In this document: piece after piece, positions 35,690 to 59,188 of the stretch | Position numbering within the stretch: the stretch's first letter is position 1 | Layout of the letters: each line of letters starts with the position of its first letter | Assembly (NCBI RefSeq): GCF_000004825.1 | Contig: NW_008805074.1 | Span: 248,001-312,000, forward strand | DNA: 64,000 nt | From: Heterostelium album PN500 | Lineage: Eukaryota > Evosea > Eumycetozoa > Acytosteliales > Acytosteliaceae | Direction: 5' to 3' | The notes under the pieces: generated by a model | The model's input: the letters and a program-made list of their open reading frames with translations, nothing else | Told to the model about the DNA's origin: nothing | Database searches by the model: none | Program-made: the position numbers and the translations under genes

Positions 35690-37240
35690 TTAGTTGTATC
35701 TTAAATATTTAGATCTGTTATGGTGTCTCTTTTTAAGAATATAGATAAAAAGTACTATGATTAGTAGACCAATGATTGATCCAATGACGATACCAGCGAT
35801 AACTCCTGGTTTCAATTTTGATTTCTTTTCTGGACATATTTCCTCTCCGAAATTACCATGGTATGTACATTTGGTATCGAGTACTGATTGGTTACAATAA
35901 ACAAGCTCGTCACTCGATGTCTTGATGTCGTTCATTGTGACGTTTGAACCTGAACAAAAGATTGGACCACCGTAGGCATTGTCGGTGTTCTTATCGAAAA
36001 CGACACCGTTGATAATAACATTGGTTGTGTCACTCAAATAGAGAGCAGATCCAAAGCCAGCGACTCTACTGGTGCCGTTGATAACAACTCCAAGGGCATT
36101 CTCATCCATTGTACTATTGGTAATAGTGGCACTGGTTGCACTGATCAAATAGATAGCACCACCAGCTTGACCAGCGGTATTCCTTGAGATCGAACTGTTG
36201 TTAACTACCAATGAACCATATCTCTGAGAGATGGCTCCACCCAATAGCGATCCACTATTAGACTCTATCACAGAGTTATTAATAGTCAAGGTTTTGCCAA
36301 TAGATCGGTAATAGATTACAGATGCACCAAAGTTGTCGGTTAAATTGGAACTACCGCCGAATGATAGATCGGATTGGAAGCATTTTACGAAACCACTTTG
36401 AATTGTTTTGTTAACAAAGTCAAGTAAATTGTTTGTGAGTGTTAGAGCTTGGATACCGACATATCTGGTGCTGTTGAAATTCAATAATGAAACGGATGCA
36501 TTGTTTGAATCGATCAATACTCGATCGAGCTGAACATATGCCGCAACGAAATTCATCAAACCATCGAAAGCATTGTTTCTAGTGATCTTGGTGTTACTGA
36601 CGGTCATAAGAATGTACTGACCAAAGATGATCGATGCGTTGGTTGCATTGTTGTTGTTAAAATCAGAGTTGGTAACGGTGACATTGGTAGGCGAACCGTT
36701 GCTCTGAATATAGAGTATACCTCCAGTGGTAGCTTGATTATTAAAACCTACAACACTATCTAGTAAAATAGTGTTGAATGCATAATAATATGAAGTATTG
36801 AGAAATACAACCCCACCGAAAGTACCGTTTAGTTGTGGTAGGACATAACCGGTACCATTTGCAATATTTAGATATTGCAAGGTAAGACTGGTATTTCCAT
36901 AGAGTTGCTCTGAGTCTTGGATGATAAAGAATGCACCTTGGCCAGCCAAGTTAATGGTGGCATAGCTATCTTTGTTTCCTTGGATGGTTACTGTTCTATT
37001 GACAAGCTGGATGTTTGTATTGTTTTGACCGGTAAGTGTGGTATTTCCTAAGCTAAGAAGAACATCGCTCGACTGTGTAGAGGCAAGTGCATTAACGATA
37101 TCAGGACAAGCATTTTCCAAAGTTGCACCACAAGGCAGAACGTAATCAGTAACACTGGAATTTATATATAAAGTTACTGGTTGTGAAGAACACAACTCAA
37201 CAACTAAAAAAACTGTTATAAATAATATATATTTATTCAT
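35690..37240 (-). CDS. Beta-helix cell-surface protein, paralogue 1 of the tandem array
   Basis: Intronless, 516 residues. It has a signal peptide (MNKYILFITVFLVVELCSSQ), then a motif shared by the array (LPCGATLENACPDIVNALAS). A long ectodomain of right-handed parallel beta-helix rungs follows: Asn/Ser/Thr/Gly-rich, with recurrent N-x-A-x-GG-I and 'TNSxFxxN' elements such as SISRNTAGQAGGAIYLISA. Near the C-terminus are four Cys residues in a conserved frame (CSGSNV, VYCNQS, KCTYHGNFGE, CPEKK), one TM helix (GVIAGIVIGSIIGLLIIVLF) and the short tail KKRHHNRSKYLRYN. The topology is type I. Ligand unknown. It is the last of five same-strand genes by transcription direction and lies 313 bp from its neighbour. 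Confidence 0.88.
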   Translation of the reverse strand: MNKYILFITVFLVVELCSSQPVTLYINSSVTDYVLPCGATLENACPDIVNALASTQSSDVLLSLGNTTLTGQNNTNIQLVNRTVTIQGNKDSYATINLAGQGAFFIIQDSEQLYGNTSLTLQYLNIANGTGYVLPQLNGTFGGVVFLNTSYYYAFNTILLDSVVGFNNQATTGGILYIQSNGSPTNVTVTNSDFNNNNATNASIIFGQYILMTVSNTKITRNNAFDGLMNFVAAYVQLDRVLIDSNNASVSLLNFNSTRYVGIQALTLTNNLLDFVNKTIQSGFVKCFQSDLSFGGSSNLTDNFGASVIYYRSIGKTLTINNSVIESNSGSLLGGAISQRYGSLVVNNSSISRNTAGQAGGAIYLISATSATITNSTMDENALGVVINGTSRVAGFGSALYLSDTTNVIINGVVFDKNTDNAYGGPIFCSGSNVTMNDIKTSSDELVYCNQSVLDTKCTYHGNFGEEICPEKKSKLKPGVIAGIVIGSIIGLLIIVLFIYILKKRHHNRSKYLRYN

Positions 37241-37553
37241 TTTAAATAGAAATTAAACAAAATCGATTGTCAATTAATTTGGCACATTTGTAGGAGGTTA
37301 AAAAGCCTTTAACTTTTCACAGGAATTAAATATTTTAAATTCATCCATCACTTAGTTTTTTCCCCATTAATTAATTAATCTTTTTTGATCAACACTAAAT
37401 CATGATATGTCATCTACTTTAGTGATTTTATTTTTTGACTTTTGCATTTTGCGAAAACACACAGAACACAGATGAACATTTAAAATCTTTCCAAACCGTG
37501 CGATATTTTAAATTTTATTTTTGTTTCTTTTAGTTTCGATTTTTATGATAATA

Positions 37554-39086
37554 TTAATAATAACTTTTATATTTGTGATGATTATGATGTCTCTTGTATA
37601 TAATATAGATGAAAACGGTCAAAAGTATGCCACCAGTAACTCCAACGACAACGCCGACGATTATTCTAACATGTGATTTGTCATCATTGGAACCTTTAGA
37701 TTTACACACTCGAAAATTACCAGAGTATGTGCACTTATCTTTGTTGTCTACATCTGGCTCACTGCAAGTAACAATATCATTGGTGTCAGACTCTATGTCA
37801 TTCAATTCGAGATTAGCACCGGAACAATAGATAGCGTTACTCTGCTTGTTAACGGTGGTATTGGTGAAGACTACTCCATTGAATTCCACTGTAGTCTTTG
37901 AATTGCTTATATACAAAATACTTGCTTCTCCGCTGGTACCTACAGAGTTGCCACTGAATGTGCTGTTACCAATGACCAAACCAAGTGCATTCGACAGGTA
38001 GATGGCACCACCAAAGTTTGCTTGATTATTAGAGAATGTACAATTCGAAATGTATGCAATTCCTTGTGCTATATTTAGTGCACCACCAGAGTCTGGAAGA
38101 CGGTTGGAATCAAATAATGTGTTGTGAACACCCAGCTGTCCAATCGAGTAGAATGTTATTGGCGATGCCATACCAACATTGTTTGATAGTTTAGAGTTGA
38201 CGACTATAACATTATTGTTGATGAGAGTAATAAAACCATAGTCTGATATTGAAGGACCAATGCCATTCACTTGATTGTTAACCAATGTAAGGTTTTGAAT
38301 CAATACATTCTCGTTGTTTAGGAATCTTAAAATAGTGGTATTGGCAATATTTGAGCTGATAACCACATTGGATAAACTAACAAAGCTATCATCTGTTGAA
38401 ATAATACTATAGGAGGCTGTGTTTCCATTGATAATACTATTTGTAATCCATAGATTACAAGGTTTGGTTGATGAAGTGGTGGTTAAAATTGCACCTTCCT
38501 CCGAGGCAGTATTATCAGAGAATACAGAATTTGAAATCGTAATATTGGTAACACCCTGAGAATAAACATAGAATACACCTCCATTAGTAGCATTGTTATT
38601 TGATACTATTACACTATCTATTACTATATTGTTTGTTGAATAATGTGTATTTATATAAAAAACACCACCATCGTATGAATTGAAAGAGCTACCGGAACCA
38701 TTTTTAATATTAAGATATTGCAAAGTTAAATTGGATAATCCTCTTTGTTGTTGAGTATCTTGGATAATAATAAATGATCCATTGCTAACTAAATCGATGG
38801 TTGCATAATTATCTTGATTTCCTTGGATTGTTATTGTACAATTGAATAATAATTTTATGTTTGTATTATTTTCACCAGTGTAAATACCGCTTTCCAATTT
38901 TAATAATAGTACAGTACTGTTTGATGATGAAAGTGCACTAACAATATCTGGACAAGCATTATCTAAAGTATCACCACAAGGTAAAGTGTAATTGGTAACA
39001 TTTGAATTGACAAACAAAGTTACTGTTTGTGAAGAACAAATCTTTGAAACAAATAATATAAAAAATATCAAAATATAATTATTCAT
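37554..39086 (-). CDS. Beta-helix cell-surface protein, paralogue 2
   Basis: Intronless, 510 residues, with the architecture of the array: signal peptide ending near KICSSQ, the shared LPCGDTLDNACPDIVSAL motif, beta-helix rungs (for example NCTFSNNQANFGGAIYLSNA), a membrane-proximal Cys cluster (CSGAN, TCSEPDV, CTYSGNFRVC), a TM helix (IIVGVVVGVTGGILLTVFIY) and the basic tail KRHHNHHKYKSYY. It differs from paralogue 1 mainly in the rung region. Gene boundaries are clear: AT-rich spacers of 283-314 bp flank it. Confidence 0.88.
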   Translation of the reverse strand: MNNYILIFFILFVSKICSSQTVTLFVNSNVTNYTLPCGDTLDNACPDIVSALSSSNSTVLLLKLESGIYTGENNTNIKLLFNCTITIQGNQDNYATIDLVSNGSFIIIQDTQQQRGLSNLTLQYLNIKNGSGSSFNSYDGGVFYINTHYSTNNIVIDSVIVSNNNATNGGVFYVYSQGVTNITISNSVFSDNTASEEGAILTTTSSTKPCNLWITNSIINGNTASYSIISTDDSFVSLSNVVISSNIANTTILRFLNNENVLIQNLTLVNNQVNGIGPSISDYGFITLINNNVIVVNSKLSNNVGMASPITFYSIGQLGVHNTLFDSNRLPDSGGALNIAQGIAYISNCTFSNNQANFGGAIYLSNALGLVIGNSTFSGNSVGTSGEASILYISNSKTTVEFNGVVFTNTTVNKQSNAIYCSGANLELNDIESDTNDIVTCSEPDVDNKDKCTYSGNFRVCKSKGSNDDKSHVRIIVGVVVGVTGGILLTVFIYIIYKRHHNHHKYKSYY

Positions 39087-39368
39087 TTTTGTAAACTAAA
39101 CTTTTAAAATAATAACTCTACATTTTGTAAAACATCAATTTTATTGGTTTTATCATTAGTGGATATTCATATATCTAAAAGATTACTTGAAAATTTTGTG
39201 GTTATAAAACAGATATTTATTAAAATCATTATTCTTTTTTTTTGATAACCAAATTTAAGAACAAAAAAATAAAAGAATTCTTTAATAAATTAACAAAAAA
39301 GATATTTTTGATTTACAAGATGAATAAGAATTAAATAAAGGATTCTTTATTGCAAACAATTTTTCTTA

Positions 39369-41021
39369 TCAACTATTTACAATAACATTGTATTTTGCAC
39401 GAATAAATCTTTTCCTAGCAAAATAGATTATGATAATTAAGAGAGTAGCACCTGCTATAGAACCAGTGACAATAGCAGCAATTTCTCCTCCACTAAGTGG
39501 AGTCTTTGTAGGTTCACCACTTGGACATGCACTGACACCATTATAGTTTCCAGAGTAACTGCATCGCTCTACACTTAAACAGGTGATAAGACTCTTGAAA
39601 TCGGTTTCAATATCATTCATGACAACATCGGCACTACCCGTACAATATATTGGCTCTGTGTATTGATTGTAGGTGTTATTGAATAATACAACGTCATTAA
39701 GTTTGATTTTCGTTGGTGGTGTGGCAGAGTTATTGATGTACATGACCGTTCCAATACCATTCTGTCCACTGACAAAGTTTTGTCCAAAAGTAGTACTGTT
39801 GATAATGACTGAACTACCATGTTGATCGTTTAATATGAAAAGTCCACCACCTGAGGTAACAGCTTGATTTCCAACAATGATTACATCACTTAATGTTAGT
39901 GAAGATTGGTATACAGCAATTGCACCACCTTGATCTGCTTGGTTATTGATCATCGTTGAATTCCAGACTGTCAGAGTACCTTGAGTGGAATATATAGCAC
40001 CTCCATTCTTTTTACTAGTATTCGAACTGAAAGTTGTATTTGTGATACCCATTCCACCTTCACCTTTAAACTTGATGGGCGTTCCATTAGTGTTGTTAGC
40101 AAAAATAGAATCTTTAATAGACACAATCACCTGATATAAATTTAAGATGTAACCAGTTGGTTGTTGATTTCCTGTGGTGATTTGGTTGTTACTAACAACC
40201 AGATTTTGAAGAGAGATCATCGATGAACTATCACCATAGAGATCCATGATATATAATGATCCTTGATTCGAATCGATCAATATATTAGCAAGTATGGCTG
40301 TTGTAATGTTGGAGGTGATGATAGTGTTTCCTTTGTTATTAACAAAACTTGAGTTTGTAATCTGTAGTTTGGTGTCGGTTACCTGAGAATAGATAACGGC
40401 ACCATTTCCACTAGCTTTATTGGCAATAAATTCGGCATTGGAAATTACAATAGTTGATGAGAAAGAAGGGTTGGAAGTAGTAGGCAGAGCAGTGTAGACA
40501 ACAGCACCATCGTCAGCATGGTTATTGATGACCGATATATGATCCACTACCAACACTGTATTAGAGTATGATGTATTCATATAAACCACTCCACCCAAAT
40601 GCACATTTCCACTAGAATAACCTGTACCATTTACAATCCTTAAGTATTGTAATGTAAGAGTGGTTGGTCCATTGTATTGCTCTGAATCTTCAATGATAAA
40701 GAATGTACCATTGTAGTTCAATTCTATGTCGGCATAGCTATCTGGATTACCTTGAATTGTCACAGTTCTATTGAGCAGTGAGATATTTGTATTGTTTTTA
40801 CCTGTGAGTGTTGCATCGCCGACACTTAAAAGAACATTGTCTGATTGTGTAGAAGCAAGTGCATTTACAATATCTGGACAAGCATTGTCTGCACTAGCAC
40901 CACAAGGTAGTGTATAATTTACTAAATATGGATTCACAAATAATGTTACTGGTTGTGCTGAACTTGTCTCAACAACTATTGAACAACAAAAGAAAGTTAT
41001 TAACAATATATATCTATTCAT
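39369..41021 (-). CDS. Beta-helix cell-surface protein, paralogue 3 (longest)
   Basis: Intronless, 550 residues from the ATG at 41021. Signal peptide (MNRYILLITFFCCSIVVETS), LPCGASADNACPDIVNAL motif, then a longer ectodomain with extra rungs, including a NKASGNGAVIYSQ type and WNSTMINNQADQGGAIAV. The Cys cluster reads CTGSAD, TCLSVERCSYSGNYNGVSAC. The TM helix (IAAIVTGSIAGATLLIIIIY) is followed by a tail ARKRFIRAKYNVIVNS, which lacks the RHHNHHKYKSY motif of its neighbours. The divergent tail may mean different cytosolic contacts. Confidence 0.87.
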   Translation of the reverse strand: MNRYILLITFFCCSIVVETSSAQPVTLFVNPYLVNYTLPCGASADNACPDIVNALASTQSDNVLLSVGDATLTGKNNTNISLLNRTVTIQGNPDSYADIELNYNGTFFIIEDSEQYNGPTTLTLQYLRIVNGTGYSSGNVHLGGVVYMNTSYSNTVLVVDHISVINNHADDGAVVYTALPTTSNPSFSSTIVISNAEFIANKASGNGAVIYSQVTDTKLQITNSSFVNNKGNTIITSNITTAILANILIDSNQGSLYIMDLYGDSSSMISLQNLVVSNNQITTGNQQPTGYILNLYQVIVSIKDSIFANNTNGTPIKFKGEGGMGITNTTFSSNTSKKNGGAIYSTQGTLTVWNSTMINNQADQGGAIAVYQSSLTLSDVIIVGNQAVTSGGGLFILNDQHGSSVIINSTTFGQNFVSGQNGIGTVMYINNSATPPTKIKLNDVVLFNNTYNQYTEPIYCTGSADVVMNDIETDFKSLITCLSVERCSYSGNYNGVSACPSGEPTKTPLSGGEIAAIVTGSIAGATLLIIIIYFARKRFIRAKYNVIVNS

Positions 41022-41178
41022 TTCGAATAACAATTATTTGACATTTGAAAAATCAAAAAAAAAAAAAACAGAAAAAGTTTAATAAGATTAAGATCTAGAT
41101 ATCAAATTTGGGATAAATCCGAAAAAATAAAAATAAAAATAAAAATATTTTATTTATATACTTTATTTGTTACAATAA

Positions 41179-42684
41179 TTAATTATAACTTTTGTATTTG
41201 TGATGATTGTGATGTCTCTTCTTTAAAATATAAATAACGAGAATTAAAAGTAGTAAACCAGCAATAGAACCGATAATGATACCTGCAATGGCGCCAGAAC
41301 CAAGTCCACTCTTTGCAGGACAAGATGATTCAGCTATATCGTAGTTACCACTGAATTTACATCTCTCTTTTTCACTTACACAAGTGAGTAATTTTTCGTC
41401 AGCCGAGGTAATGTTACTCATTGTAACACTTGAGCTATCACAGTAGACTGGATTGACTGTGTCGTTGTTTAAATTATCCGAAAAGGTTACATCGACTATT
41501 AGTACTTTTGTATCGATGTTGTTGATGTACAATGCACTACCGGTACCGTTGAAACTAACAGCGTTACTTGAAAAGTTGGTGTTGACAATGGTGAGGCCTA
41601 AGGAATCGAAAATATAAACGCCACCACCTGCTAGAAGAGCATAGTTGGATGATATAACAGAGCTAGAGATGGCCAACGTTCCATAGAATACAACGATGGC
41701 ACCACCGAAAACTGGGGCATTGTTTCCATTAATGTGAGTGTTACTAATGAAGAGAGTCATCTTTGAACTGAATGTAATGGGAGTACCGGTGTTATTGGAA
41801 ATTTGGGAGTTATAGAATTGAAGATTGTTTTGTTGTGACAACACGATGGAACTTGTCAATGGAGATGTCGATGGTGACACATAGTTGTTTGTAAGAGTCA
41901 TGTTGTAGACGCTGACATTTCCATTGCTATTGAGTCTAAGCACCGAGTTTCCTCCAACATTCGAATCGACTAAAACATTATTGAATGAAATAGTTCCGTT
42001 CGTTACGAAAATAATTCCATATTCAGCCTGATTTCCAATGATATTCGTGTTTGAAATATTTGTTTGACTATAATTGTCTGTATAGAAAACGGCACCGAAA
42101 TTTGCAGAGTTATTTCTGAATGTTGAGTTGGAAATGGTAATATAAGATGGTTGAGATGTTTTTAGATAAACGACACCACCATAATAAGCATTGTTGTTGG
42201 TAGCAATGACATTGTCAAGTATCAAGATTGAGTTGGAGAAACTGGTACTAATATAGATAACACCACCCATCATTCCATGGAAACCTGAGCCATTGACAAT
42301 ATTTAGATATTGTAATGTTAGACTAACATTACCATTACTTTGTTGATTGTCCAACATTGAAATGAAGTAACTATTGTTGGCCATATTGATGGTAGCATAT
42401 CCATTTTGATTTCCTTGGATCGTAACAGTTATATTTATCAGATTGATAAAGGTGTTGTTTGGACCAGTGTATGTGTAATTTCCCAAATTCAATATTACAT
42501 TGGCGGAACTTGTAGAGTTGAGAGCACTAGCAATATCAGGACAAGCATTGTCTGTAGTATTACCACATGGCATTGTATATTGAACATTGTTTGGGTTTAA
42601 AATAATTGTTTCTGGTTGTGAAGAAACAAGTTTACATAAAAAAATTAAAGATATAAATACTAATGAATAATTAAACTTTTGCAT
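41179..42684 (-). CDS. Beta-helix cell-surface protein, paralogue 4
   Basis: Intronless, 501 residues. Signal peptide (MQKFNYSLVFISLIFLCKLV), MPCGNTTDNACPDIASALNS motif, beta-helix rungs rich in NxS/NxT sequons (STFRNNSANFGAVFYTDN, THINGNNAPVFGGAIVVF), Cys cluster (YCDSS, TCVSEKERCKFSGNYDIAES), TM helix (SGAIAGIIIGSIAGLLLLIL) and tail KKRHHNHHKYKSYN. The spacer to paralogue 3 is only about 157 bp, so the promoter must be compact or shared with the upstream 3' flank. Confidence 0.88.
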   Translation of the reverse strand: MQKFNYSLVFISLIFLCKLVSSQPETIILNPNNVQYTMPCGNTTDNACPDIASALNSTSSANVILNLGNYTYTGPNNTFINLINITVTIQGNQNGYATINMANNSYFISMLDNQQSNGNVSLTLQYLNIVNGSGFHGMMGGVIYISTSFSNSILILDNVIATNNNAYYGGVVYLKTSQPSYITISNSTFRNNSANFGAVFYTDNYSQTNISNTNIIGNQAEYGIIFVTNGTISFNNVLVDSNVGGNSVLRLNSNGNVSVYNMTLTNNYVSPSTSPLTSSIVLSQQNNLQFYNSQISNNTGTPITFSSKMTLFISNTHINGNNAPVFGGAIVVFYGTLAISSSVISSNYALLAGGGVYIFDSLGLTIVNTNFSSNAVSFNGTGSALYINNIDTKVLIVDVTFSDNLNNDTVNPVYCDSSSVTMSNITSADEKLLTCVSEKERCKFSGNYDIAESSCPAKSGLGSGAIAGIIIGSIAGLLLLILVIYILKKRHHNHHKYKSYN

Positions 42685-43432
42685 TTTATAAATAATAAAT
42701 AAATAAATAGATATTAGATATATATGAGACTTTGATTTCGTTTAAACGAAAGATCTTCAAGTTTTTGTTTAAATAGAAAAAAAAAAGAGTAAACTAAGAT
42801 ATTTTAAATGATATTTAAGATAATTTTTATTTAAATAAAATAAAGTATAATAAAAAGATATTCTTTATTAAATATCTGTTAAAAATCTTGATTTTTTACA
42901 TAAAGTTTTTTACTATTTTTCTTTTACGATACCAGACCTTTTTTACAAAAAAAATTTGATGCCCCTTAATCTTAAAGAATAATCTTATGAAGATTATTTT
43001 TACTGTAAAAATTTTGAGAAAAAAAACAAAGAAATTAAAAATAATGTTTAAATGAATGTGTTCTATCGAGAAAAAATAAGTGATTGGCTCATTTCGAATA
43101 AAATAATAAAAAAATAAACTTACCATTTACCTCACAATTGATATAGAACGGTTGACCATTCACCTAGTACATTTTACGAGTGTATCGCAGTTTAGATTCG
43201 GATTGTCGACTGTTCGGATCCCAGGATGGATCATTAATATGCTTCTACCTTGGACTTTTCATATTGTGATCTATCCTTTACATATCTCTTCGTTCTCTAT
43301 TAGTTTTTTTTTTAGCCATAACCCTTTGAAAGGGTTTCAAAAAAATTTTTAAATAATAAAACATGGTAATATAAATTTTGTTGTATCTATTTTATTTTAT
43401 TCGTAACAATAAATTATTATTTTTTTTATGTT
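42685..43432. other. Spacer within the beta-helix array, with a GC-richer island
   Basis: About 750 bp between paralogues 4 and 5. AT-rich apart from 43130-43320, where base composition rises without a credible coding frame. The other spacers of the array are shorter and lack this island, so it may be an inserted fragment or an RNA gene. Confidence 0.5.
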
Positions 43433-44956
43433 TTAATGATAGCTTCTGTACTTGTGATGATTGTGATGTCTCTTATATGCAATGTAAACGATTATAATGA
43501 CAAAAGCAATACCCAAAATGACACCAATAACGATACCAGCAACTTGTCCGTTTGTAAGTCCTTTCTTTTTATGATCATTTGAATCGGCGGGTTCATCCTT
43601 ACACGAATACGCATCACTGGTTCCGCTTACAGTGCATGAATCCTCAGACGCACATGAAAGGAAAGTCTTGGCATTGGTTTTGATGTTGTTAAAAGTTAAT
43701 TTCGACATACTGCAGTAGAAGGGTGTGGTGACATTCGAGGTAGTATTGAAGGTGACATTGGTGAAGATCAAACCGGAGGAAACGCCGCTAGAGTAGACGG
43801 TGCTACCAACTCCATCGTCTCCCACATTGGTATTGTTGAAGAGTGTGTTTGAAACTTTGGCAGAATAACTTCCAGAGAGGTAGAGTGCACCACCATAGTC
43901 ATTAGCAAAATTGTTGGTAAATACAGAGTTGTTCAAGTTGAGAACAGCACCAGAGTCCATGTAGAGAACACCAACGCTGGAACCAATATTCTGGTTGAAT
44001 TTACAATTGTTGATATTCAATAAACGTCCATAGAATAGACTTGAAAGTTTATATTGAATGATACTGCCACCGTTGTTTCCACTAAAGGTAGAGCTGGTGA
44101 TTAAAACATCACTCTCGATACTCTTGATGTGAGAACCACCAGAGTTTCTAAGATTGTTATTAGCGTAGGTCAGTCCGTTGATAGTGGCAGTGTCGGCAAC
44201 ATTTGCAATGGCCATAAGAGTACTGCTGGCAATATTCCCAGACATTGTCACATTATTGAGGTAAAGGCCAGAGAAGATAATGTAGAGGATTCCAGTTTTA
44301 CCTGCAATATTGTTGTTGATGACACTGTTTACGATGGTAAGATTACCTGGGGTCGATGTGTAGTATACAGCACCGGAATTGGTGGCAGTATTATTGTTAA
44401 GCACCGAGTTGGAAATTACAACAGAGGTGGTAGCGCTACTATGACCACTGGTTTGAACATTGAAAACACCTCCATTATTGTTGTTGTTGTTGGTGGCAAT
44501 AACATTGTCCATGACAACATTGGTATAGACATTTGAGATATTGATTGTGACTGCAGCTCCCAAACTATTGGTAACAGTCATATAACTAATTGTCAACATG
44601 GTAGTGGTTGGAACTGGAGTGTCTGCAATAATGATGAAACCAGCTTCACTTTTCATGTCAATGGTAGCCTGTGAATTTGGATTGGCACTCTTGATGGTCA
44701 AAGTAATATTGGACAAAGAGATATCGGTATTGTTTGGACCTGAGTATACTCCACCGGCCAAAAGTAAAACTAAAGAATCGGAATTGTTTGAATTTTTATA
44801 TACAGAAAGGGCAGTCAAGATATCAAGACAAGCATTTTGAGTTGTATCTCCACATGGCATGGAATTGACTTTGTTTCCACTATCTACATATAATTGGGTG
44901 GATAGACAAATTCCAAAAGTAATAAATAAAATATATATTATAAATAATGATTTCAT
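43433..44956 (-). CDS. Beta-helix cell-surface protein, paralogue 5 (first transcribed)
   Basis: Intronless, 507 residues. Signal peptide (MKSLFIIYILFITFGICLST), MPCGDTTQNACLDILTAL motif (Leu for Pro in CPDI), and rungs such as SVLNNNTATNSGAVYYTS and SVFTNNFANDYGGALYLSGS. The Cys cluster is CSMSK, SCASEDSCTVSGTSDAYSC, the TM helix QVAGIVIGVILGIAFVIIIV and the tail YKRHHNHHKYRSYH. It is the most divergent N-terminal half of the five and is separated from paralogue 4 by about 750 bp. Confidence 0.88.
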   Translation of the reverse strand: MKSLFIIYILFITFGICLSTQLYVDSGNKVNSMPCGDTTQNACLDILTALSVYKNSNNSDSLVLLLAGGVYSGPNNTDISLSNITLTIKSANPNSQATIDMKSEAGFIIIADTPVPTTTMLTISYMTVTNSLGAAVTINISNVYTNVVMDNVIATNNNNNNGGVFNVQTSGHSSATTSVVISNSVLNNNTATNSGAVYYTSTPGNLTIVNSVINNNIAGKTGILYIIFSGLYLNNVTMSGNIASSTLMAIANVADTATINGLTYANNNLRNSGGSHIKSIESDVLITSSTFSGNNGGSIIQYKLSSLFYGRLLNINNCKFNQNIGSSVGVLYMDSGAVLNLNNSVFTNNFANDYGGALYLSGSYSAKVSNTLFNNTNVGDDGVGSTVYSSGVSSGLIFTNVTFNTTSNVTTPFYCSMSKLTFNNIKTNAKTFLSCASEDSCTVSGTSDAYSCKDEPADSNDHKKKGLTNGQVAGIVIGVILGIAFVIIIVYIAYKRHHNHHKYRSYH

Positions 44957-53692: not shown

Positions 53693-53773
53693 CGACACCT
53701 GCAGGATTCGAACCTGCGCCCCCGAAGGGATTTGATTTCGAGTCAAACGCCGTAACCACTTGGCTAAGGTGTC
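53693..53773 (-). tRNA. tRNA-Ser (anticodon CGA)
   Basis: Minus strand starts GACACCT and ends AGGTGTC plus G discriminator, a 7-bp acceptor stem. A-box region GCCAAGTGGTTA, anticodon stem TTTGA/TCAAA with loop CTCGAAA (anticodon CGA), an extended variable arm (TCCCTTCGGGGG) as in class II Ser tRNAs, and T-arm with GGTTCGAATCC. A TTTT terminator follows about 6 nt after the 3' end. No intron. Confidence 0.96.
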
Positions 53774-59115: not shown

Positions 59116-59188
59116 CGCTCCTGGTTGGGATCGAACCAACGACCATTCGGTTAACAGCCGAATGCTCTGCCTACTGAGCCACAGAAGC
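59116..59188 (-). tRNA. tRNA-Asn (anticodon GUU)
   Basis: Minus strand starts GCTTCTG, pairing with CAGGAGC at the 3' end (one G-U), discriminator G. A box TGGCTCAGTAGG, anticodon stem TTCGG/CCGAA with loop CTGTTAA (anticodon GTT), T-arm GGTTCGATCCC. 73 nt, no intron. Confidence 0.96.

Follow-up and report, generated by a model that had tools for sequence, protein, structure and literature searches.

What might a row of five similar surface-protein genes do for a social amoeba, and how did it come about? Much remains to be learned about how amoebae tell bacteria apart and recognise one another, a question on which the locus described here bears. The window analysed is a stretch of 64,000 nucleotides from Heterostelium album PN500 (contig NW_008805074.1, positions 248,001 to 312,000), and the five genes (W1–W5, also labelled P0001–P0005 or genes 1–5) occupy positions 35,690 to 44,956 of it. 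An earlier note, made from the sequence alone, had proposed a recognition or adhesion family under diversification, expanded by tandem duplication. We give about even chances to the view that the array and its wider family are non-enzymatic, Pmp-like beta-helix receptors with endolysosomal-type tails, which would bind ligands and carry them into the cell. The tail motif, Y-x-x followed by a bulky residue or tyrosine, is the clearest new feature of the family and a new lead. With its stiff framework, its less constrained face and an uptake signal open to experiment, the family provides a short list of candidate receptors.

Shared architecture of the array

The five genes stand consecutively, head to tail and without introns, on the minus strand, and all are open with zero in-frame stops (Table 1). 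An N-terminal hydrophobic segment of the signal-peptide kind and a strong single C-terminal transmembrane (TM) segment were found in all five proteins, both by hydropathy rather than by trained predictors; W4 has two borderline internal hydrophobic segments besides its C-terminal one. The motif PCG-x4-NAC-x-DI at the N-terminal cap (N-cap) is present in all five, and four membrane-proximal cysteine columns are invariant among them. In these respects the earlier description holds. It had also placed a near-identical RHHNHHKY(K/R)SY tail in four of the five, and this was found in three only (genes 2, 4 and 5); gene 1 ends in RHHNRSKYLRY and gene 3 in RFIRAKYNVI.

Pairwise protein identity within the array is 29–43% and is distributed as the earlier note had said, with conserved ends and a variable middle. 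Mean amino acid identity is 55% in the N-cap and 57% in the tail, as against 37% and then 31% along the helix; the cysteine region reaches 36% and the TM segment 42%. The rungs, which had been thought to vary in both number and sequence, vary in sequence, while their number is nearly fixed and only gene 3 has one extra. This extra rung aligns with the preceding rung of W3 at a score of 44 and with the matching rung of W4 at a score of 50, slightly closer than to W3's own (0 of 500 shuffles in each comparison).

The genome to which the window belongs (32.9 Mb in 39 contigs) was searched for relatives using the proteins P0001, P0004, P0005 and L013 and the model PF13229. Besides a further locus on C13, 11 other contigs hold relatives. 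The family comprises at least 21 open reading frames (ORFs), five in the window and at least 16 elsewhere, plus at least one pseudogene.

Fold of the ectodomains

A right-handed beta-helix, proposed earlier for the ectodomains, is a well-supported prediction that draws on Pfam matches, a structural profile match and rung-pattern counts. Pfam Beta_helix (PF13229) exceeds its curated cut-off in P0004 only, one of the five array genes (30.3 vs 25.9 bits), and Chlam_PMP (PF02415) in P0003 only (21.0 vs 20.6 bits), with matches below the cut-off in P0002 and P0005; P0001 has neither at E<=1. At E<=0.01, Beta_helix is matched by 7 and Chlam_PMP by 5 of the 21 members. The best match of a 21-member family profile in the PDB is Rhombotarget A (9cdu, E 6.2e-11), followed by BcAlyPL6, an alginate lyase by name (E 2.8e-6); the three further matches at E<=1 all lie at the TM end. 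In Rhombotarget A, the domain that was crystallised is a beta-helix (PMC12643943).

Rung patterns number 6, 12, 13, 12 and 11 in genes 1–5, as against shuffle means of 2.0–2.9, and the rungs of the array proteins are rich in Asn and Gly. Member C28 is present in the 21-row tree described below and absent from the other trees and from the rung, FxxN and sequon counts, which cover 20 members. FxxN occurs 6–14 times in 16 of these (shuffle means 1.6–4.5); the counts in the other four, with shuffle means in brackets, are 2 in W1 (2.4), 3 in W5 (2.0), 3 in C13f (2.4) and 5 in C22 (2.6). Within the array, W2, W3 and W4 have six FxxN each, and GGA[ILV] occurs once or twice per gene.

The invariant or nearly invariant columns of the 21-member alignment are Met1, Cys, Gly, Asn, Leu and Phe only. 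The ectodomain is probably not an enzyme, because no charged residue (Asp, Glu, Lys, Arg or His) is among these columns. One reservation is that three ectodomain Asp columns (W1 D47, D109 and D161) are invariant within the five array genes taken alone.

Cytoplasmic tails

Tail boundaries were set by a hydropathy rule. Across the family the tails are net basic and 11–25 residues long (13–15 in the array), and a broad motif, Y-x-x-[L,I,F,M,V,Y], occurs in all 20 tailed members. The strict form, YxxPhi, is present in 11 of these 20, yet in only one of the five array genes (W3); it is seen as YNVI, YQQF, YQTL, YSSI, YSNI, YKNM, YLPM, YQPI, YNRL, YSPL and YKSM. In 19 of the 20 the tyrosine falls at tail position 7–13, the exception being C4b (position 3, altered C-terminus), and the flanking residues differ between members while the position of the tyrosine stays. 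The tail of C39 has an acidic dileucine, ESPNLL, in addition to its strict YxxPhi.

Among 14 representatives of the 21 ORFs (C10a, C10b, C16, C13f, C4d, C4b and C7 were left out), the broad motif occurs in 14 against a shuffle mean of 3.6 and the strict motif in 9 against 2.0, and 0 of 10000 shuffles reach either count. A separate shuffle used the 20-member set without C4b and C7. As controls we took five proteins from this genome whose TM segment is similar (L021, L026, L022, L023 and L024; three confirmed as ComC_SSD/EGF by Pfam, two judged alike by eye), and one of them has the tail motif; a further hit, L025, was kept out for its split frame. The TM segment of the family, of the GLSNGAIAGIVVG type, resembles that of the ComC_SSD/EGF proteins of this genome, whose tails differ. 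An exact search with the tail DNA pattern gave no match.

YxxPhi and acidic dileucine motifs are described as classical signals for adaptor protein (AP)-dependent endocytosis and lysosomal sorting; the signal of LAMP1 and LAMP2 is YxxPhi, and such signals are read by AP-1, AP-2 and AP-3 (PMC5297682). Judged by their motifs, the tails of the family point to endocytic or endolysosomal sorting rather than to a Tgr-like role. For W1, W2, W4 and W5 the endocytic reading rests on homology of position, because the motif there is YxxY, in which these four of the five array members differ from the LAMP tails. The tail signal also offers a way to tell uptake receptors from plain adhesins.

The wider family and its phylogeny

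The earlier idea of expansion by tandem duplication has to be corrected. W4 is 56–58% identical to the two copies on C10 and the copy on C16, as against 34–42% to its array neighbours, and W5 is 64% identical to C13:913532, about 620 kb away. In the trees, W1–W4 group with the C10 and C16 copies (support 98–99.6) and form a clade only together with them, while W5 pairs with C13:913532 (support 100) and then joins copies from C22 and C4 (83–98). When the array and its dispersed sisters are held as one clade, the approximately unbiased (AU) test gives p 0.032 with 15 rows and 0.015 with 21 rows, for a group that was named after the tree was seen; the 15-row tree lacks C7, C11b, C30, C37, C39 and C28. 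For the five array genes alone as a clade, rejection is trivial, with W4's sisters left out. The array most likely consists of two old lineages, with copies moved between contigs, because the nearest relatives of W4 and W5 lie elsewhere, the trees split them and a single clade is mildly rejected. On the same grounds a simple, recent tandem burst was rejected.

Young duplications do occur elsewhere in the family. Two members on C10, at 566849-568372 (L003) and 585243-586766 (L002), are 95% identical and form an inverted duplication. It continues beyond the genes into flanking DNA that carries a multi-TM ORF, and over 3.4 kb of gene plus flank the identity is 95%. A pair on C4 is likewise young, at 93% identity. 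Adjoining the C10b copy are frames of 1372 and 1397 amino acids (C10 ~580300-584300 and 587200-590700; L042, L055, L051) with beta-helix regions and hydrophobic C-terminal parts, and similar frames occur on C7, C2, C32 and elsewhere.

Decay and fragments were also seen. The pseudogene, on C4 at ~1907418-1909004 (L019, L060, L062), has in-frame stops and lies beside three other copies, one of which is C4b (L016). The member C7:1859680-1861110 (L069) has a hydrophobic end that by eye resembles a glycosylphosphatidylinositol (GPI) signal, and its tail is absent. Two short isolated matches to W5 residues 312-391 (C39:104868-105080, L072, and C39:114337-114567, L071) lie near the full-length C39 member.

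Pattern stretches in prokaryote genomes and viral contigs (75 + 58) yielded no confirmed relative. The literature searched yielded no report of a beta-helix surface family in dictyostelids; subscription papers were mostly outside this search, and such a paper may exist. By term counts, pectin lyase, tgr, surface and transmembrane are absent from the main text of a study of dictyostelid family expansions (PMC8535579).

Selection and divergence

The ratio dN/dS (omega), which the earlier note had suggested computing by domain, was estimated with a pairwise codon model for eight close pairs only. Comparisons internal to the array were left out because synonymous sites are saturated there (same-amino-acid codon identity 37–58% outside the signal segment). 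Whole-gene omega is 0.92 for C10a-C10b (dS 0.026, not different from 1), 0.20 for C10a-C16, 0.21 for C10b-C16, 0.48 for C4c-C4d and 0.46 for C4c-C4b. It lies between 0.11 and 0.15 in W5-C13f, W4-C10a and W4-C16, where dS is saturated (2.7, 2.0 and 2.7). By domain, C10a-C16 gives 0.08 for the N-cap, 0.23 for the helix, 0.27 for the cysteine neck and 0.10 for TM segment plus tail. In none of the eight pairs or their domains is omega significantly above 1. The few estimates above 1 are those for the C4c-C4d N-cap (1.70), the C4c-C4b TM segment plus tail (2.06) and three C10a-C10b domains at the bound of 20, which have almost no synonymous change behind them; none of these differs from 1 (likelihood-ratio statistic 0.3-0.8).

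Selection is purifying but uneven, with a constrained scaffold and a looser exposed face. With helix columns assigned as exposed or buried from the rest of the family, pN/pS is 1.08 vs 0.43 in C10a-C10b, 0.79 vs 0.06 in C4c-C4d, 0.37 vs 0.18 in C10a-C16 and 0.32 vs 0.22 in C10b-C16; for pairs with saturated dS it is 0.47 vs 0.40 (W5-C13f) and 0.45 vs 0.34 (W4-C16). In the two young pairs pooled, nonsynonymous to synonymous differences (N:S) are 38:13 on the exposed face and 7:10 in the scaffold (Fisher p 0.018). Taken singly, C4c-C4d gives p 0.018, C10a-C10b p 0.23 and C10a-C16 p 0.016. This test leaves out gappy columns, namely 18 codons in C4c/C4d (4 N:1 S) and 8 in C10a/b, none of them changed. 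A looser face would be expected of a binding board, and relaxed constraint explains it equally well. The claim of diversification is thus weakly supported by a face that evolves faster than the scaffold, against an omega that is never significantly above 1; recognition under diversification is possible.

The C10a-C10b pair differs in 25 N and 9 S codons, and 20 of the 25 N fall in codons 235-429. As a nonsynonymous hot spot this was rejected, since the contrast (20 N:4 S vs 5 N:5 S) gives Fisher p 0.085 for a split made post hoc. Gene conversion was also rejected as the main cause of the conserved ends: same-amino-acid codon identity in the array is 0.55 in the N-cap and 0.58 in the tail, only slightly higher than the 0.37–0.49 elsewhere (signal segment 0.76, from 49 cells only). 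W4 and W5, at 34% protein identity, have a 23-base exact match across tail codons, which hints at gene conversion on a local scale.

Proposed uptake mechanism and known systems

In the proposed mechanism, most members would be single-pass glycoproteins of the surface or of endosomes, with a Pmp-like right-handed beta-helix outside the membrane, a CG...C cap at its N-terminus and a four-cysteine neck leading to the membrane. The helix would serve as a stiff board, its fold tolerating changes on the exposed face, and this board may bind a ligand on a particle, a cell or a matrix. The basic tail of 11–25 residues would carry, or end in, a tyrosine sorting signal placed as in lysosomal membrane proteins. 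Receptor and cargo could then be delivered by clathrin adaptors to endosomes or phagosomes.

Several points weigh against this mechanism. In W1, W2, W4 and W5 the motif is YxxY, whose final tyrosine lies outside the canonical Phi set. The broad motif was drawn up with the tails already in view, the tail limits depend on a hydropathy rule and the representatives are related by descent, so that the shuffle count should not be read as a strict probability. The controls number only five and represent some three clusters of closely related proteins. The tail can be dispensed with, given that C7 lacks it and ends like a GPI signal, and C4b is without the normal C-terminus. When Pmps of Trichomonas were tagged, they were located in the endoplasmic reticulum, Golgi or lysosomes rather than at the plasma membrane (PMC6701047).

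Those Trichomonas vaginalis Pmp-like proteins (TvPmps), compared here by description, would by analogy be the closest in design and the nearest precedent. They form a eukaryotic family with Pmp-type repeats, a conserved TM segment and tyrosine endocytic tails of the NPx[YWF] type, and expressing one of them raised adhesion (PMC6701047). Their tails combine NPx[YWF] with an acidic cluster, whereas YxxPhi or YxxY follows a basic stretch here, and they are reported to have no detectable signal peptides, in contrast to the hydrophobic N-terminus of the present proteins (PMC6701047). The family would belong with these already known eukaryotic Pmp-like beta-helix membrane proteins, and its tail gives a specific prediction. 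Chlamydial Pmps likewise have FxxN and GGA[ILV] rungs and a common scaffold with loops that vary; in AlphaFold models the rungs seem to be built from FxxN and GGA, and loops on one face seem able to contact ligands (PMC10715098). In the present family, PF02415 matches 5 of 21 members at E<=0.01. Unlike the type I TM proteins described here, chlamydial Pmps are autotransporters (PMC10715098), and GGA[ILV] is sparser in the amoebal family (0–3 per protein in 20 members). Rhombotarget A of Acinetobacter baumannii resembles the family in its N-terminal beta-helix (PMC12643943) and differs in being a surface protein of a bacterium, with a second domain predicted to be Ig-like; it is a fold relative only.

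Alternative functions

The earlier note had compared the array in design with the Tgr allorecognition proteins, and the likeness extends to signal peptide and TM segment (PMC4931340), a social-amoeba paralogue family and a surface recognition design. In D. discoideum the known recognition system consists of Tgr proteins such as TgrB1 and TgrC1, which are listed under IPT/TIG (PMC4931340) and show extreme polymorphism there (PMC12324515). Their ectodomain is of the IPT/TIG type, whereas none of the five array proteins matches IPT/TIG at E<=1, nor does it occur in the list of eight families matched across the 21 members (E<=0.01). An allorecognition or kin-recognition family that works like Tgr, by cell-cell binding through ectodomains polymorphic between strains, would suit the type I surface architecture, the many paralogues, the freer exposed face and the clustering of N differences in the young C10 pair, for all that the contrast is not significant. 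The absence of omega significantly above 1, the age of the array members, whose codons agree at only 0.37–0.58 outside the signal segment, and the nearly fixed rung number speak against it. Tgr-type domains would moreover already be plentiful if the organism is Polysphondylium pallidum, for which 110 IPT/TIG proteins are given (PMC4931340). We regard this alternative as unlikely, and receptors that grab and swallow their cargo as more likely than proven self-recognition genes. The wider claim of a recognition or adhesion family nevertheless fits the surface-type beta-helix, in which no charged residue is conserved family-wide, the number of paralogues, the recent duplicates elsewhere, the pseudogene and the freer face. 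In a bolder version, the roughly 20 paralogues, their scaffold constrained and their face free to vary, most with a tyrosine uptake tail, would be a Tgr-independent repertoire of receptors for prey or particles, or for kin cleared by endocytosis; we put the chance of this only a shade above that of allorecognition.

LAMP tails are short and basic with a similar motif spacing, and the LAMP ectodomain is taken as unrelated to the array proteins. Structural glycoproteins that line the endolysosome or contractile vacuole without a specific ligand would share this short tail and motif position and could use the 10–26 N-x-S/T sequons per ectodomain. Five of 20 members (W5, C13f, C4c, C4d and C7), however, have fewer sequons than the shuffle mean, so that glycosylation is not clearly selected throughout, and a lining leaves about 20 divergent paralogues unexplained; we find it slightly less probable than allorecognition. 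Developmental adhesins or matrix anchors, for cell-substrate or cell-sheath contact, would need the tail as a membrane anchor only. A yeast is reported to have beta-helix adhesins (PMC8746771), such adhesins are also under discussion in chlamydiae (PMC10715098), and C7 looks GPI-anchored, but the tyrosine persists more than composition predicts in tails that otherwise differ, and adhesins seem less probable again than a lining. Membrane-tethered, pectin-lyase-like enzymes that degrade polysaccharides would agree with the fold class, the BcAlyPL6 match and the Asp columns of the array; the lack of family-wide conserved charged residues rules against them, and we hold them to be very improbable.

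Features and neighbouring sequence

Table 1. Positions of the array genes and their elements in the window
Feature	Position	Strand	Remarks
W1 (P0001), 516 aa	35690..37240	-	type I beta-helix membrane protein (predicted); intact ORF
W2 (P0002), 510 aa	37554..39086	-	architecture as W1; intact ORF
W3 (P0003), 550 aa	39369..41021	-	architecture as W1, one extra rung; Chlam_PMP above cut-off
W4 (P0004), 501 aa	41179..42684	-	Beta_helix passes its cut-off; contigs C10 and C16 carry the nearest relatives
W5 (P0005), 507 aa	43433..44956	-	nearest relative C13:913532 (64%); clade other than that of W1-W4
N-cap motif W1, residues 36-48	37097..37135	-	
N-cap motif W2, residues 36-48	38943..38981	-	
N-cap motif W3, residues 39-51	40869..40907	-	
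N-cap motif W4, residues 39-51	42532..42570	-	
N-cap motif W5, residues 34-46	44819..44857	-	
Membrane-proximal cysteine region W1 (C429, C449, C458, C469)	35834..35956	-	nearly invariant in 21-member family
Extra 26-aa rung of W3, residues 365-390	39852..39929	-	
Tail W1	35693..35734	-	YLRY (Y-x-x-Y)
Tail W2	37557..37595	-	YKSY
Tail W3	39372..39416	-	YNVI, strict YxxPhi
Tail W4	41182..41223	-	YKSY
Tail W5	43436..43474	-	YRSY

Nine neighbouring ORFs were scanned; five belong to ordinary families (kelch, Utp11, BCS1_N, AAA and SART-1) and four are without a match. The same window holds a tRNA-Ser (CGA) at 53693-53773 and a tRNA-Asn (GTT) at 59116-59188, both on the minus strand. The intergenic stretch 37241-37553, upstream of W1, contains GTGTTCTGTGTG, which may resemble dictyostelid G-boxes.

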